From assembly GCA_016188625.1 (NCBI GenBank), contig JACPHL010000154.1:1-5546 (forward strand): DNA of 5,546 bases. The letters run 5' to 3'. The DNA is from Candidatus Rokuibacteriota bacterium (GTDB lineage: Bacteria > Methylomirabilota > Methylomirabilia > Rokubacteriales > JACPHL01). Numbering within the stretch: the stretch's first letter is position 1; every line of letters begins with the position of its first letter. This document shows positions 103-5,546 of this stretch, piece by piece. The notes beneath the pieces are model-generated. The model was not told the origin of the DNA, did not search any database, and saw nothing but the letters and a program-made list of their open reading frames with translations. A program made the translations under genes and the position numbers.

Positions 103-3100
103 CTACGGCTCGGCGAGCCGGAGCCCGAGGCGGGCGGCGAGCCCGAGGCTCCGCTTGACGTACTCGGGGATCCGCAGGGCCTGGAAGAGGGCGTGCGCCT
201 CCCCGAGATGCGCAGCGGCCGCCGCCGGCTCTCCCCGCTCCTGGGCGAGGGCGGCGAGATCCAGGCGGGTCCGCCCGAGGTCGTAGCGCGCCTGCATCGC
301 GGCGAAGGTTCCGAGGGCCTCGCCCAGGCGGGCCTCGGCCTCGGGGAGATCGCCCTGGACCCGAGCGATCCGCCCCAGCGACCGCTGGAGGCAGCCGACC
401 CCGTAGAGGGAGCTCGCCTGCCGCGTGACGGTCAGGCCTCGGCGCGCCAGGGCCAGGGCCTTCTCCACCTCGCCGATGGCCCCGTACGCCTCGGCCAGGA
501 AGGCCATGAACAACCCGAGGAGTTGCGCGAACCGGAACTGCCCGACCTGCTCGACCGCCTGCTCCAGCACGGGGATCGCCCGGGCGGCCTCCCCCTTCTC
601 CAGGTAGGCGTGTCCGAGCCAGCCGAGGGCGATGGCGGTGGTGAGGGGGTCCGGCGCGCGTTCCAGACCCCGCTGACACGCCTGGATGCCGGCCTCCCAG
701 TCTCCTCGCGCCGCATGGATGATCCCTGTGGTCCAGGCGGCGCAGCTCTCCAGCTCCGGATCCCCCACTATCTCTCCCAGCGCGGCGGCCTGCGCCTCGG
801 CCTCGAGCGCGGCCTCGAACTCCCCGCGGACCATCCGGTTGAGCCCCATCGCCCAGTACGCCGGGCCGAGCCACCATCGCTCCTGGGCGCGCTCCAGGAG
901 GGCTACCGCCTGCCGGGCGTGATCGAGCCCCTCGTGGGGCCGGCCAGCCAGGGCCCCCTGCTGGGCCAGGACGTAGTGGACCTTGCCCAGCGTCGCCTCG
1001 TCCCCGCCCCGCGACGCCTCGGCGAGGCCCGCCTCGGCGTGCTCGGTCGCGCGCGCGTCGTCGCCGATGAAGAGGTAGCTCCGGCTGAGCAGGAAGTGGT
1101 AGTGGCCGCTCAGCCGGGGGTCGTCCAGCCGCTCCAGGGTCGCCTGATGGGGGGCCAGGAGGGTTATGATCTCCTGGAAGCGGCCCAGGGGGACGAAGGA
1201 GGAGGCCTGGCGGAGGAGGAGGTCGAGGTGGCACCGGTCCCGTTCCTCGGGCGGCAGGCGATCGACGTGGGCGAGGGCGTCGTCGAGGATGCGGATGGCC
1301 TCGGTATGGGCGTGTCCCCGGGCGGCCCGCTCCGCGAGCCGGGTCAGGTACTCCAGGGCCTTGGCCGCCTGCTCGGCCCTGGAGTAGTGGTGGCCAAGGC
1401 GATCGTAGACCTCCTCGAGGCGCCCGGCGTGGATCGCCTCCAGGGCCCGCGCGGCCGCGGCGTGGAGGGCCTGCCGCTGGCTGATCGTCAGGCCCTCGTA
1501 GACCACCTCCTGGGTGAGGGTGTGGGTGAAGGCGTAGGCCGGCTCCGGCCTGCCGCTCTGCAGATAGAGGAACTCGAGCCGGGTGAGCTCCCGGAGATGG
1601 GGGTCGAGCTCCCCGGGCCCCTCCCAGACCGCCTGCAGGAGGGGGAGCGGAATCTCCCGGCCGATCACGGCCGCCACCTGGAGGAGCCGCCTGGGCTCCT
1701 CGGTCAGCCGATCGGCCCGGGCGAGGAGGACCTCCTGGATCGTGTCGGGCACCGCCGCGGGGGCGCGGAGCTCCTCCGTCGTCCCCACGCTCCGCGCCAG
1801 CTCCTCCAGGAAGAACGGGTTCCCCTCGGCCTTGTCGAGGATCACCGCGGCCAGGGCCTCGGGGACGTCGTCCCGCCGGAGGACCGAGCGCACCACGCTC
1901 AGGCTGTCCTCCCGGGAGAGGGGCTGAAGGGCCACCTGGGTCACGTACGACCGCTCCACCCATGGCGGCCGGTAGCCGGGCCGGTAGGTGCCGAAGAACA
2001 GGACGGGCACCCCGGCCCCGATCTCCATCAGGGAGGCGAAGCACTCCTCCGTCATCGTGTCCACCCAGTGAAGGTCCTCCACGACGAAGACGATGGGACG
2101 CCGACGGCTCCCGTTGAGGATCATCTGCTGGAGCGTCTCGAAGGTCCGGGCCTTGATCGCGCCCGGGCTTAGCGCCGCCAGCCGCTCCGTGCCCTCCTTC
2201 ACCCCGAGGAGCCAGAGGAGGTAGGGCGCCGATTCGTCGGGGTCCATCCCCACATCCTGGAGGCCGACCCGGATCTTCGCGGCGATCGCCTCGGGGGTAT
2301 CGGTCTCCGTGATCCGGAAGCTCTCCCGGAGGATCTCGAGCACCGGCAGGTAGGGGATGGCGGCGCCGTAGGACTGGCAACGCCCCTCGAGGTACGTGAC
2401 CTGGGCGTCGGCGAGGCTCCGGCGGAACTCGAGGATGAGCCGGGACTTGCCGATGCCGGCCTCGCCCAGGATGCCGACGACCTGCCCGTGCCCCTGCATG
2501 GCGGTCAGGAGCCGGCCCTGGAGCAGCTCCAGTTCGTGACCCCGTCCCACGAACGCGGCCATCCGCCGCCCGAGCCCCGGCCGCTCGGCCGCGACCAGCG
2601 AGAACGCCCGCCCGTGCCCCCCCGCCGCGCCCTCCGGGATGAGCGCGAAGTCGCGCTCGAGGAACGGAGCCGCCGCCTCGCTCACGGAGATGCTGTCGGG
2701 CTCGGCGCCGGCGATCAGCGCCTCGAGGACCGCGCCCGCCTCGCGCTTGGCCTCCAGGTCGATGGTGGCCGCGCGGCCGACCTGGCCCAGCATGAACTGG
2801 CCGGTGTGGATCCCGATCTTGAAAGCCGGTGGCTCGCCGGGGTCCGCCCGGGCCCGGTCGGCGGCCTTCTGGATCGCCACCGCGGCGAGCGCGGCGCGCC
2901 GCGGGGCGTCTTCGACCGGCTCGAGCCCGAAGGTGGCCACCAGGCCGATCGGGCTCAGCTCCTCGACCCGGCCGCCGAAGCTCTGCACCTTGTCCACGAG
3001 CACCTCGATGGCCCGGCTCGTCTCGGGGGCGGCGGCCTCGCCGGCCGGGAGCACGACGGCGCGCAGGAGCGTGAGGCGCCGGCGCTCCCACCGGAGCCCC

Positions 3101-4140
3101 GGGGTCCCGGGGGCGATCGGCGGCGCGGGCGTCGGGGCCTCCCCCCTCGCGACCCGCCGACGGGGCGGCGCGGCGGTCTCCTGGCGGAGCCCGTACTTCT
3201 CGATCCGCGCGCGGAGGGTGTTGCGCGAGATTCCCAGGCGGGCCGCGGCGCGCGAGATGTTCCACTGGGTCTGGCGCAGGATGTCGAGGAGGTGACCGCG
3301 CACCGCCTCGTCCAGCGTGGCGGCCGCAGGCTCGCGCGGGTCCTGGCGCGGCTCCCCGCGCCCCGTCTCGGGCAGCCCGAGGACCGCGGCCGTCACCTCT
3401 CCACTTTCCGAGAGGAGCGCGATCCGCTCGATGACGTTGGCGAGCTCCCGGATGTTGCCGGGCCAGGGGTAGGCCAGCAGGGCGGCGCGGGCGTCGGCGG
3501 CCAGGGCCCTGGACGGCAGGGCGTAGTCGCGGCAGGCGCGGGCGAGGAAGTGCTCGGCGAGGTGGAGGATGTCCTGTCCCCGCTCGCGGAGGGGCGGGAG
3601 CCAGAGGGTGAGGACGGCGAGGCGGTGGTAGAGGTCCTCGCGGAAGCGCCGGGCGCGGGCGGCGACGGCGAGGTCCTGGTTGGACGCCGCGATGATCCAC
3701 ACGTCCGCCGGCTCACTCCGGGTGGCGCCGAGGCGGCGGACGGCGCGCTCCTCCAGCACGGTGAGGAGCTTGGCCTGGAGCCCTTCCGGGAGGAGGCCGA
3801 CCTCGTCGAGGAACAGGGTGCCGCGGTGGGCGGTCTGGAAGAGGCCGGGCTTGGCCTGGCGGGCGTCGGTGAAGGCGCCGCGCTCGTAGCCGAACAGCTC
3901 GGCCTCCAGCAGGGTCTCGGGGATGGCGGCGCAGTTGACGTCCACGAAGGGGCCGCCGGCGCGGGGCCCGGCACGGTGGAGGGCGCGGGCCAGGACGCCC
4001 TTGCCGGTGCCAGTCTCCCCCTGGAGGAGGATGGGGGGCAGGCGCTGCCCCTCTGAGCGTCGCCGTAAGAGCCGCCGGACCTGCTCCCGGACGGCCACGA
4101 GCCCCGGGCTCTCCCCGATCAGCTCCGCCAGGGGGTCCAT
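103..4140 (-). CDS. Sigma-54-dependent activator fused to a degenerate cyclase-like domain, a second P-loop ATPase and a TPR tail
   Basis: Predicted cytoplasmic transcription activator (bacterial enhancer-binding protein) of about 1345 residues, roughly three times the usual family length. Numbering is from the ATG at 4140. The sigma-54 AAA+ domain (about 3-258) has Walker A GETGTGKG (41-48), a GAFTDA loop (88-93, usual form GAFTGA), Walker B GTLFLDE (107-113), sensor I IIAASNQD, the arginine-finger segment FREDLYHRL and sensor [11 protein letters not shown] Fis-type HTH follows (about 276-318, core [16 protein letters not shown]), then a Pro/Arg-rich linker. A class III cyclase-like domain (about 351-516) keeps IGIHTGQ but lacks the catalytic residues. 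An AAA_16/STAND-like ATPase (from about 530) has [12 protein letters not shown] (559-566), Walker [12 protein letters not shown] and [12 protein letters not shown]-like repeats fill about 911-1335. No receiver, PAS or GAF domain precedes the AAA+ module. The 4140 start was chosen because AAGG lies 6 nt upstream and the AAA+ fold begins at once; 4176 (ATG) and 4227 (TTG) are longer in-frame alternatives. The gene is divergent from a sigma-54 promoter, its likely target. Confidence 0.93.
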
Positions 4141-4150: not shown

Positions 4151-4162
4151 ATCTTACCCCTG

Positions 4163-4182
4163 CTGCTCAATCGCATGCTCAG
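4163..4182. promoter_or_regulatory. Candidate activator-binding dyad (upstream activating sequence)
   Basis: A 20-bp imperfect palindrome of the form CTG-N2-CA-N2-CG-N2-TG-N2-CAG, with 6 of 10 symmetric pairs. It is centred about 110 bp upstream of the predicted sigma-54 start site, a usual distance for activator sites. The same stretch also holds a direct repeat TGCTCA at 4164-4169 and 4176-4181. Assignment to the neighbouring Fis-type HTH is inference. Confidence 0.33.
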
Positions 4183-4195
4183 GTTTTTACCACCC

Positions 4196-4255: not shown

Positions 4256-4270
4256 TGGCACCCGAGTTGC
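4256..4270 (+). promoter_or_regulatory. Sigma-54 (-24/-12) promoter for the TRAP-associated operon
   Basis: The sequence reads TGGCAC, five bases, TTGC. It matches the RpoN consensus (TGGCAC-N5-TTGC) at every conserved position, with the GG and GC doublets exactly 12 bp apart. Taking the GC as the -12 element, transcription would start near 4282, giving a leader of about 65 nt before the ATG at 4347. It lies next to, and points away from, a gene for a sigma-54 activator, so a local regulatory link is likely. No transcript data were available. Confidence 0.83.
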
Positions 4271-4346: not shown

Positions 4347-5287
4347 ATGAAGAGGCCCATGCATCGAGAAGCCGCCAGATCGGCCCCCCTGCACCCCAGC
4401 GGGCGGGCGTTCGGCCTGGTGGTCGTCCTCGCGGCCCTCCTCGCCGGCTGCTCGATGAATCGGATCGCGGTGGGCCTCGTCGGCGACGCGCTCGCCGGCG
4501 GCGGGGGCGTCTGGGCCGCCGACGACGACCCGGAGCTGGTCCAGGACGCCCTGCCGTTCGGGCTGAAGACGTACGAGAGCCTGCTGGCCGTCTCCCCCGA
4601 GCACCGGGGGCTCCTCCTGGCCGCGGCCCGCGGATTCAGCGCCTACGCCTACCTCCTCCAGGACGAGGCGGATCGGATCGAGGCGAGGGAGCTGGGGCGG
4701 GCGCGCGAGCTGCGCGCCCGGGCGCGCCGCCTCTACCTCCGGGGCCGGGACTACGCCCTCCGCGGGATCGAGATGGCCAATCCTGGCTTGCCGCGCTCGC
4801 CACGACCGGGGTGGAGGAGGTGCCGTTCCTCTACTGGGCCGGCGCCGCCTGGGCCGGGGCGCTCTCCGCGGCCCAGGGCGACCTCGACCTCCTGGCCGAG
4901 CTGCCCGTCGCCGGTGCGCTGGTCGGGCGCGTCCTGGCGCTGGACGAGACCTATGAGCTGGGGGCGGCCCACGAGTTCTTCGTCTCCTACGAGGGGAGCC
5001 GCCCGGGCGGCAGCGCGAGCCGGGCGCGCGAGCACTACCACCGGGCCCTCGGGATCTCCGGCGGCCGGCGGGCCTCGGCGCACCTCGCCCTGGCCGAGGC
5101 GGTCACGATCCGGGAGCAGAACCTCGCCGAGTTCCGGGGCCTGCTCGCCGCGGCCCGCGCGGTGGATCACGACCGGGTCCCGCACCTTCGGCTCGTCAAC
5201 ACGATCGCCCGACGCCGCGCGCTCTGGCTCGAGTCGCGGATCCCGGACCTCTTCCTGGCGGCGGGCGACGGGGAGGAGAACCCATGA
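4347..5287 (+). pseudogene. TatT-family TRAP transporter-associated TPR lipoprotein, frameshifted (may be intact in the real genome)
   Basis: Resembles the TRAP transporter T-component family (Treponema Tp0956/TatT), helical TPR-like lipoproteins that bind the periplasmic solute receptor of a TRAP transporter. The ATG at 4347 opens a lipoprotein signal peptide: charged N-terminus, hydrophobic stretch from about 21, lipobox LLAGC with Cys35. Ser at +2 suggests outer-membrane sorting. The N-terminal half (147 codons to 4787) has family-like segments such as [28 protein letters not shown] and RARRLYLRGRDYALRG. The C-terminal half, with VPFLYWAGAAW, HEFFVSYEGSRPGG, AREHYHRALGISGG and LAEAVTIREQN, lies in the -1 frame from about 4790 to the TGA at 5285-5287. 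Restoring one base at 4788-4789 would give NPGF followed by AALATTG and a protein of about 313 residues, normal for the family. Without it, the first frame stays open to the window end. The stop overlaps the next gene's start. Family call strong; whether the lesion is real or a sequencing error is unknown. Confidence 0.85.
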
Positions 5288-5546
5288 AGCGCATCCTGAT
5301 GGGTGTCCTGGTCGCGACCGGCCTCCTGCTCGCGGCTCCGGTCCACGCGAGGACGCTGACGATCAAGCTCGGGACCCTGGCCCCGGAGGGCTCCTCCTTC
5401 TACCGCCTCATCCGCGACATGGCCGAGGCGTGGCAGGAGGCCTCGGGCGGGAGGATCCGGGTCCGCATCTACCCCGGGGGCGTCGCCGGCGACGACCCCG
5501 ACATGGTCCGGAAGATGCGGGTCGGCCAGCTCCAGGCTGCCGCCGC
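5284..5546 (+). CDS. TRAP transporter substrate-binding protein, DctP/TatP type (partial, 3' end beyond window)
   Basis: The first 87 codons of a periplasmic solute receptor for a TRAP transporter, which would capture a substrate (often an organic acid) and deliver it to the DctQ/DctM membrane permease. The N-terminus is a Sec signal peptide: MKR, a hydrophobic core ILMGVLVATGLLLAAP, and an Ala-x-Ala-like site with cleavage likely after VHA (residue 22). The mature start TLTIKLGTLAPEGS, followed by RDMAEAWQEASGGRIRVRIYPGG and then DDPDMVRKMRVGQLQAAA, is typical of the DctP family. The ATG overlaps the upstream TGA as ATGA, and GGAGGAG lies 5 nt before it, so the gene is probably translationally coupled to the TatT-like gene and belongs to the same sigma-54 operon. 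The substrate cannot be predicted here, and the diagnostic C-terminal part is outside the window. Confidence 0.92.
   Translation, partial: MKRILMGVLVATGLLLAAPVHARTLTIKLGTLAPEGSSFYRLIRDMAEAWQEASGGRIRVRIYPGGVAGDDPDMVRKMRVGQLQAAA

Follow-up and report, generated by a model that had tools for sequence, protein, structure and literature searches.

The stretch of DNA analysed here (the window, 5,546 nt; contig JACPHL010000154.1 of a Candidatus Rokuibacteriota genome) carries on its minus strand the gene for a 1345-residue regulator, which in our view is probably a PspF-like, divergently placed and likely self-repressed sigma-54 activator, without an N-terminal sensor and under the control of a C-terminal switch. 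The switch would consist of a signal transduction ATPase with numerous domains (STAND) and a tail of tetratricopeptide repeats (TPR). An earlier reading of the DNA letters alone (the sequence-only reading) had described the protein; going beyond it, we find by sequence comparison that the gene lies in a conserved cis-cassette, and that the sequence itself points to the DNA sites involved and to the probable targets.

Domain architecture of the regulator

The chain runs from an AAA+ sigma-54 activator through a Fis-type helix-turn-helix (HTH) and a class III cyclase fold to the nucleotide-binding oligomerization domain (NOD) of a STAND ATPase and the TPR. The features of the gene are as follows; pLDDT is the predicted local distance difference test score of the AlphaFold model.

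103..4140, minus strand: regulator gene, 1345 aa; one open frame, ATG at 4140, stop at 103-105
3604..4119, minus strand: Sigma54_activat, AAA+ sigma-54 interaction domain, residues 8-179 (PF00158, 1.7e-58)
4000..4020, minus strand: Walker A of the activator ATPase, GETGTGK, residues 41-47; kept across the family
3862..3879, minus strand: sigma-54 contact loop GAFTDA, residues 88-93
3379..3588, minus strand: AAA_lid_14, AAA+ lid, residues 185-254 (PF25601, 1e-20)
3193..3294, minus strand: HTH_8, Fis-type HTH, residues 283-316 (PF02954, 1.7e-10)
2581..3093, minus strand: predicted pseudocyclase, class III cyclase fold without catalytic residues, about residues 350-520
1999..2553, minus strand: AAA_16, STAND nucleotide-binding domain, residues 530-714 (PF13191, 1.8e-30; 6mfv match of the model)
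2443..2466, minus strand: Walker A of the second ATPase, GEAGIGKS, residues 559-566
2065..2079, minus strand: Walker B of the second ATPase, EDLHW, residues 688-692
130..1338, minus strand: TPR superhelix, about residues 935-1337 (TPR_12, Pfam; regular helix pairs, model pLDDT over 90)

This order, which the sequence-only reading had proposed, is borne out by Pfam, profile and fold matches. The AAA+ domain begins at residue 8 with no sensor ahead of it, the Fis HTH is internal, and the second P-loop ATPase is recovered as AAA_16, giving two ATPases with intact Walker motifs in one chain; the TPR tail is supported by both TPR_12 and the TPR helices of the model. The full NOD extends to about residue 880, beyond the AAA_16 match. 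In NCBIfam, the best matches span either the activator part or the cyclase-ATPase part, and none spans the entire chain.

An AlphaFold model of the large, immune-receptor-like sensor module (997 residues, 349-1345) has a pLDDT of 87.5, with a predicted template modelling score of 0.58, at which the relative placement of the domains is unreliable. Its best match in the PDB is PH0952 (6mfv, 5e-16), a solved STAND protein with a TPR sensor, and Avs3, Apaf-1 and CED-4 are also among its structure matches. Based on a NOD (NBD-HD-WHD, the nucleotide-binding, helical and winged-helix domains) followed by an arm and TPR repeats, the regulator is predicted to belong to the STAND ATPases with a TPR sensor. 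The earlier description of the protein as a sigma-54 counterpart of the MalT/Rv0386 scheme remains the best fit.

The counts below refer to a family of 53 proteins, comprising the open reading frames from 52 matches and the window's own. Both Walker motifs of the activator domain are retained across this family; in the NOD, Walker A is kept in 53/53 members and Walker B is recognised in 49/53 by a simple pattern. These figures bear on another interpretation of the C-terminal module, namely that it is a scaffold whose state depends on a partner protein bound to the TPR (e.g., a transport component), or that activity follows protein level alone, with no small inducer sensed. TPR arms usually bind proteins, and the target of the regulator includes transport proteins; moreover, PspF is likewise controlled by a partner protein, PspA, and MalK, MalY and Aes dock on MalT. 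However, the conservation of both ATPase sites speaks for a working nucleotide switch, and we regard such a scaffold as unlikely.

Divergent promoter and upstream sites

Outward from the ATG of the regulator lie, in order, a -10-like hexamer, a candidate upstream activating sequence (UAS) and a divergent -24/-12 promoter, which reads into genes for a tripartite ATP-independent periplasmic (TRAP) transporter.

4151..4156, minus strand: -10-like hexamer TAAGAT, putative own promoter of the regulator, 10 nt before the ATG
4176-4192, plus strand: candidate UAS TGCTCAGGTTTTTACCA; conserved at the same place in relatives
4256-4270, plus strand: -24/-12 sigma-54 promoter TGGCACCCGAGTTGC, directed into tatT, at a position that the family conserves
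4347..5283, plus strand: tatT, TRAP transporter T-component lipoprotein, probable target (PF16811, 3.7e-26)
5284..5546, plus strand: start of dctP, TRAP solute-binding protein, probable target (PF03480, 1.9e-7)

With one mismatch allowed, the pattern TGGCAC-N5-TTGC has a single match in the window, which is exact and points away from the regulator. We surveyed the 51 family loci with enough upstream sequence and found a divergent -24/-12 site within 450 bp in 28 of them. Twenty-four such sites lie 95-130 bp from the regulator start, against 0.054 expected and a same-strand count of 1, although these counts are not fully independent because the loci are related. Among 312 other genes of the same loci, only one has a -24/-12 site at that distance. 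Many loci also share a motif about 33-52 bp from the regulator start; one subgroup has GGTGTTCAActcTTGACCACC, and the window's subgroup TGCTCAnnTTTTTACCA.

On the regulator strand, a -10-like hexamer stands about 10 nt from the ATG in 32/51 loci (0.19 expected). With the hexamer so near the ATG, the messages of the family, including that of the window's regulator, are probably almost leaderless, and the candidate UAS would lie over the upstream region of the regulator's own promoter.

The contact loop reads GAFTDA instead of GAFTGA in 53/53 family members, which might suggest a regulator or repressor independent of sigma-54, similar to TyrR or VpsR, in which the AAA+ domain is used without this factor. 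GAFTDA, however, is a known working variant, carried naturally by FlgR (PMC3162934) and by DVU2106 of Desulfovibrio (PMC4641369). An rpoN gene is found in the window's genome and in 20/20 relatives tested. Its presence and the -24/-12 promoters conserved at a fixed distance led us to reject a sigma-54-independent relic, and we consider this alternative very improbable. Based on its AAA+ domain with Walker A and B, the accepted loop variant, the Fis-type HTH, the candidate UAS near a -24/-12 site and the presence of rpoN, the protein can be assigned from sequence to the bacterial enhancer-binding proteins.

Probable targets

We scanned all 2.6 Mb of the genome for the UAS motif of the window, tolerating two mismatches at most and using a reversed control. 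It occurs twice, both copies being exact (4176 and contig position 8130), and the reversed control gave 0. A -24/-12 promoter follows the first copy after 80 bp (TGGCACCCGAGTTGC) and the second after 66 bp (TGGCATCTGGCTTGC, at 8196); these are the sole plus-strand matches of the promoter pattern on the contig. The first copy precedes tatT-dctP-dctQM, a TRAP transporter operon, and the second a gene for a 272-aa lipoprotein of no known family (8261-9079). Orthologues of this lipoprotein (58-68% identical) occur in the loci of the relatives L039, L040, L049, L056 and L105, and in L039 the orthologue is immediately divergent from the regulator, behind a UAS and a -24/-12 site. In the window's genome the regulon probably includes tatT-dctP-dctQM and, at contig position 8261, the lipoprotein gene. 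The rarity of the UAS and -24/-12 pairs would make the mechanism testable with one short promoter fragment. The pairs also offer a first handle on gene regulation in Rokubacteria, an uncultured lineage of soil and groundwater that is widespread in soil.

The tatT gene contains a frame change near 4785, its first half lying in the frame of 4347 and its second half in another frame to 5287; either a fault of assembly or a true pseudogene could account for this. The window ends at a scaffold gap: a run of N begins inside dctP (L038, contig C279) at about 5547, and beyond it the frame of dctP is a different one.

We rejected one common target across the family, as the divergent or nearby genes vary (TRAP and SBP_bac_5 transporters, DsbD, an aminotransferase fusion, a fatty acid hydroxylase), and each paralogue seems to serve a local target. 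The closest relatives (64-65%; L107 2901-5474 and L210 2928-5561) have as divergent neighbour a gene for an aminotransferase class III fusion, and their -24/-12 sites stand at 144-145 bp. This gene, set against the TRAP operon beside the window's orthologue, indicates that targets change between close relatives. The commonest divergent gene in the family encodes a membrane-anchored-looking protein of about 190 aa (L066 10547-11119, L065 5413-6192, L075 10636-11304 and others), with no Pfam match; behind it there is often a gene for a second, related protein of about 155 aa.

The cyclase-fold domain

The cyclase-like part alone falls below the Pfam threshold (E 0.2), while the same Pfam model scores a free-standing sister protein at 1e-24. 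Nevertheless, the cyclase-like region claimed in the sequence-only reading is upheld by profile and fold. A profile of this part (33 sequences), run against solved structures, retrieves class III cyclases and nothing else (CyaB 8e-6, CyaC 6e-5), and its AlphaFold model (pLDDT 89) has a template modelling score of about 0.7 to class III cyclases. What the earlier reading had not included is the loss of the catalytic residues. The second metal-binding Asp is lost in 55/55 fused proteins and the catalytic set is complete in none, so that the domain shares with class III cyclase enzymes the fold alone.

In the same genomes, the cyclase-NOD-TPR order recurs in free-standing proteins, whose identity to the sensor module reaches about 50%; the one of them that was scanned has a zinc ribbon in place of the regulator's activator. 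In these proteins, both metal Asps, the base Asp and the Arg are intact in 16/16 complete cases. Three apparent exceptions reach or nearly reach a contig end, at the site where the activator part would be, and group inside the fused family. Because the catalytic set is lost in every fused protein and kept in the free-standing sisters, fusion to the activator goes with loss of catalysis, and on this residue evidence the cyclase domain of the regulator is a pseudoenzyme. The split between dead fused and intact free-standing forms clearly exemplifies the conversion of an enzyme into a regulatory component. A bifunctional chain, combining transcription activation with synthesis of a cyclic nucleotide, would fit the presence of a cyclase fold, but an active cyclase in the fused protein is excluded by the same lost residues, and we find this alternative scarcely credible.

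In the cyclase-domain tree, fused and free-standing proteins split cleanly (one change, support 100), although this tree may be pulled by the shared loss of catalytic residues. The NOD tree, in contrast, intermixes them, requiring 7 changes with all rows and 4 without two long branches. A single history of the whole chain was disfavoured (one change against 4-7; p = 0.046 in the approximately unbiased test on the NOD tree). These trees suggest but do not prove exchange, and NOD-TPR modules may, with marginal support, have been swapped between the regulators and the free-standing cyclase enzymes.

In a separate observation, the activator domain of one relative (L209; G097:C520) is about 71% identical to the window's, but in the sensor module identity falls to about 34-39%, a pattern that would fit an exchange of sensors or their much faster evolution.

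Family and distribution

End-to-end matches to the window protein, 41-62% identical, number 53 in 31 of 58 related genomes of the order, with up to four per genome. Named records place the family in Candidatus Rokubacteria, phylum Methylomirabilota, where the fusion is, judging by these matches, a widespread paralogous family. Two more genomes, from another family of the class, contain the regulator (G087 complete, G086 partial), and no end-to-end match was found in 57 Myxococcota or 80 Pseudomonadota genomes, a thin sample. Matches also occur in metagenome-assembled genomes labelled Chloroflexi and Acidobacteria (L104, L110); these may be binning errors, as their scaffold names share a soil series with many Rokubacteria bins.

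The scaffold that carries the N gap and the tatT frame break might also have joined two genes into one, a flaw against which the sequence-only reading had cautioned, but the 53 open end-to-end relatives in 31 other genomes exclude such an assembly join and leave it practically no chance. A defence system was likewise rejected, as PADLOC matches the activator domain only, via RtcR/PspF-like models.

Proposed mechanism

Sigma-54 activators work as AAA+ rings bound at a UAS, and cyclase folds dimerise. Starting from the computed domains, lost catalytic residues and DNA sites, with their rarity and conservation, we infer a gating step, an inducer, autorepression and a role for the pseudocyclase. 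At rest, the TPR arm and the NOD would keep the chain closed and ADP-bound, and the N-terminal AAA+ ring could not form. Binding of an inducer to the TPR arm would open the NOD, followed by loading of ATP and multimerisation. This would bring the AAA+ domains into a ring, with the GAFTDA loop remodelling the sigma-54 polymerase. The internal Fis HTH would anchor the protein at the UAS, about 70 bp upstream of the -24/-12 promoter. Dimer formation by a cyclase fold would match a palindromic site occupied by a dimeric HTH, and most likely the pseudocyclase acts between the HTH and the NOD as a relay that dimerises. The inducer is perhaps linked to the solute of the adjacent TRAP transporter, an idea suggested only by the target.

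In PspF, a UAS between divergent promoters mediates autorepression. In the window, the candidate UAS separates the regulator from the divergent target and covers the region expected to hold the regulator's own promoter, and by this analogy self-repression is likely. Sensory control by the C-terminal module would follow from homology: STAND NOD-TPR proteins are closed with ADP at rest and multimerise with ATP upon inducer binding, and in MalT-like proteins the NOD-TPR tail inhibits the output until ATP or inducer acts (PMC6468293). Similarly, the NOD-TPR tail of AfsR inhibits its activator domain and is relieved by ATP binding (PMC10936776).

Several points weigh against this model. The simple pattern misses the NOD Walker B in 4/53 members, the regulator's own -35 is weak and the spacer long, and the kinship of the family loci affects the promoter counts as described above. 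In addition, the UAS motif was first found in the family loci, although the genome-wide search that gave two copies is separate from this.

More tentatively, and at somewhat less than even odds, the family may represent a new class of sigma-54 activators, with several paralogues per Rokubacteria genome, in which assembly of the AAA+ ring is controlled by an inflammasome-like STAND switch instead of phosphorylation or a ligand domain at the N-terminus, the pseudocyclase couples mechanically, and NOD-TPR modules have been exchanged with intact free-standing cyclases. By its place behind the HTH, a STAND switch would add a further means of controlling the activator ring, with two nucleotide-driven assembly machines in one chain.

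Comparison with known systems

Francke et al. (PMC3162934) described four basic sigma-54 activator architectures, none with a STAND or other sensor behind the Fis HTH; the sensor either precedes the AAA+ domain or is absent, or, in the LevR type, phosphotransferase system domains follow the AAA+ domain. Pfam then listed about 136 compositions of sigma-54 activators (PMC3162934), so rarer architectures exist. In the open-access literature we found no description of a sigma-54 activator with a STAND/TPR/cyclase architecture, and the regulator family is apparently undescribed.

PspF and other type Ic activators resemble the regulator in having the AAA+ domain at the very N-terminus, a Fis HTH, a divergent target and a UAS between the genes. 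However, the HTH is the last part of PspF, which is restrained by PspA, while the regulator carries about 1000 more residues of STAND sensor. The regulator is also not PspF proper, as it scores 236 bits against a TIGR02974 cut-off of 444 and neighbours a TRAP operon instead of psp genes.

MalT (STAND, ATPase-TPR-LuxR) likewise places a NOD switch and a TPR sensor on an activator of uptake genes, and PH0952, the best structural match of the regulator's sensor, is a MalT homologue. MalT, though, has a LuxR HTH as output, where the regulator has an N-terminal AAA+ sigma-54 activator with a Fis HTH, and a pseudocyclase between. As no LuxR HTH is among the Pfam matches of the regulator and the chain ends in TPR helices, it falls outside MalT and the large ATP-binding regulators of the LuxR type. 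AfsR, with the order SARP-NOD-TPR (SARP, Streptomyces antibiotic regulatory protein), also has an N-terminal activator followed by an inhibitory NOD-TPR tail (PMC10936776). Its SARP output uses the housekeeping sigma factor and, unlike the regulator, it has no AAA+ ring and no cyclase fold.

Kinase/cyclase fusions associated with thiazole/oxazole-modified microcins (TIGR03903) also combine a cyclase fold and an ATPase module with an output domain, as do Rv0386-type proteins, which have the order cyclase-ATPase-LuxR. Their output, unlike that of the regulator, is a kinase or a LuxR HTH. TIGR03903 matches residues 329-976 of the regulator (7e-76) with a score of 256, far below its cut-off of 706.

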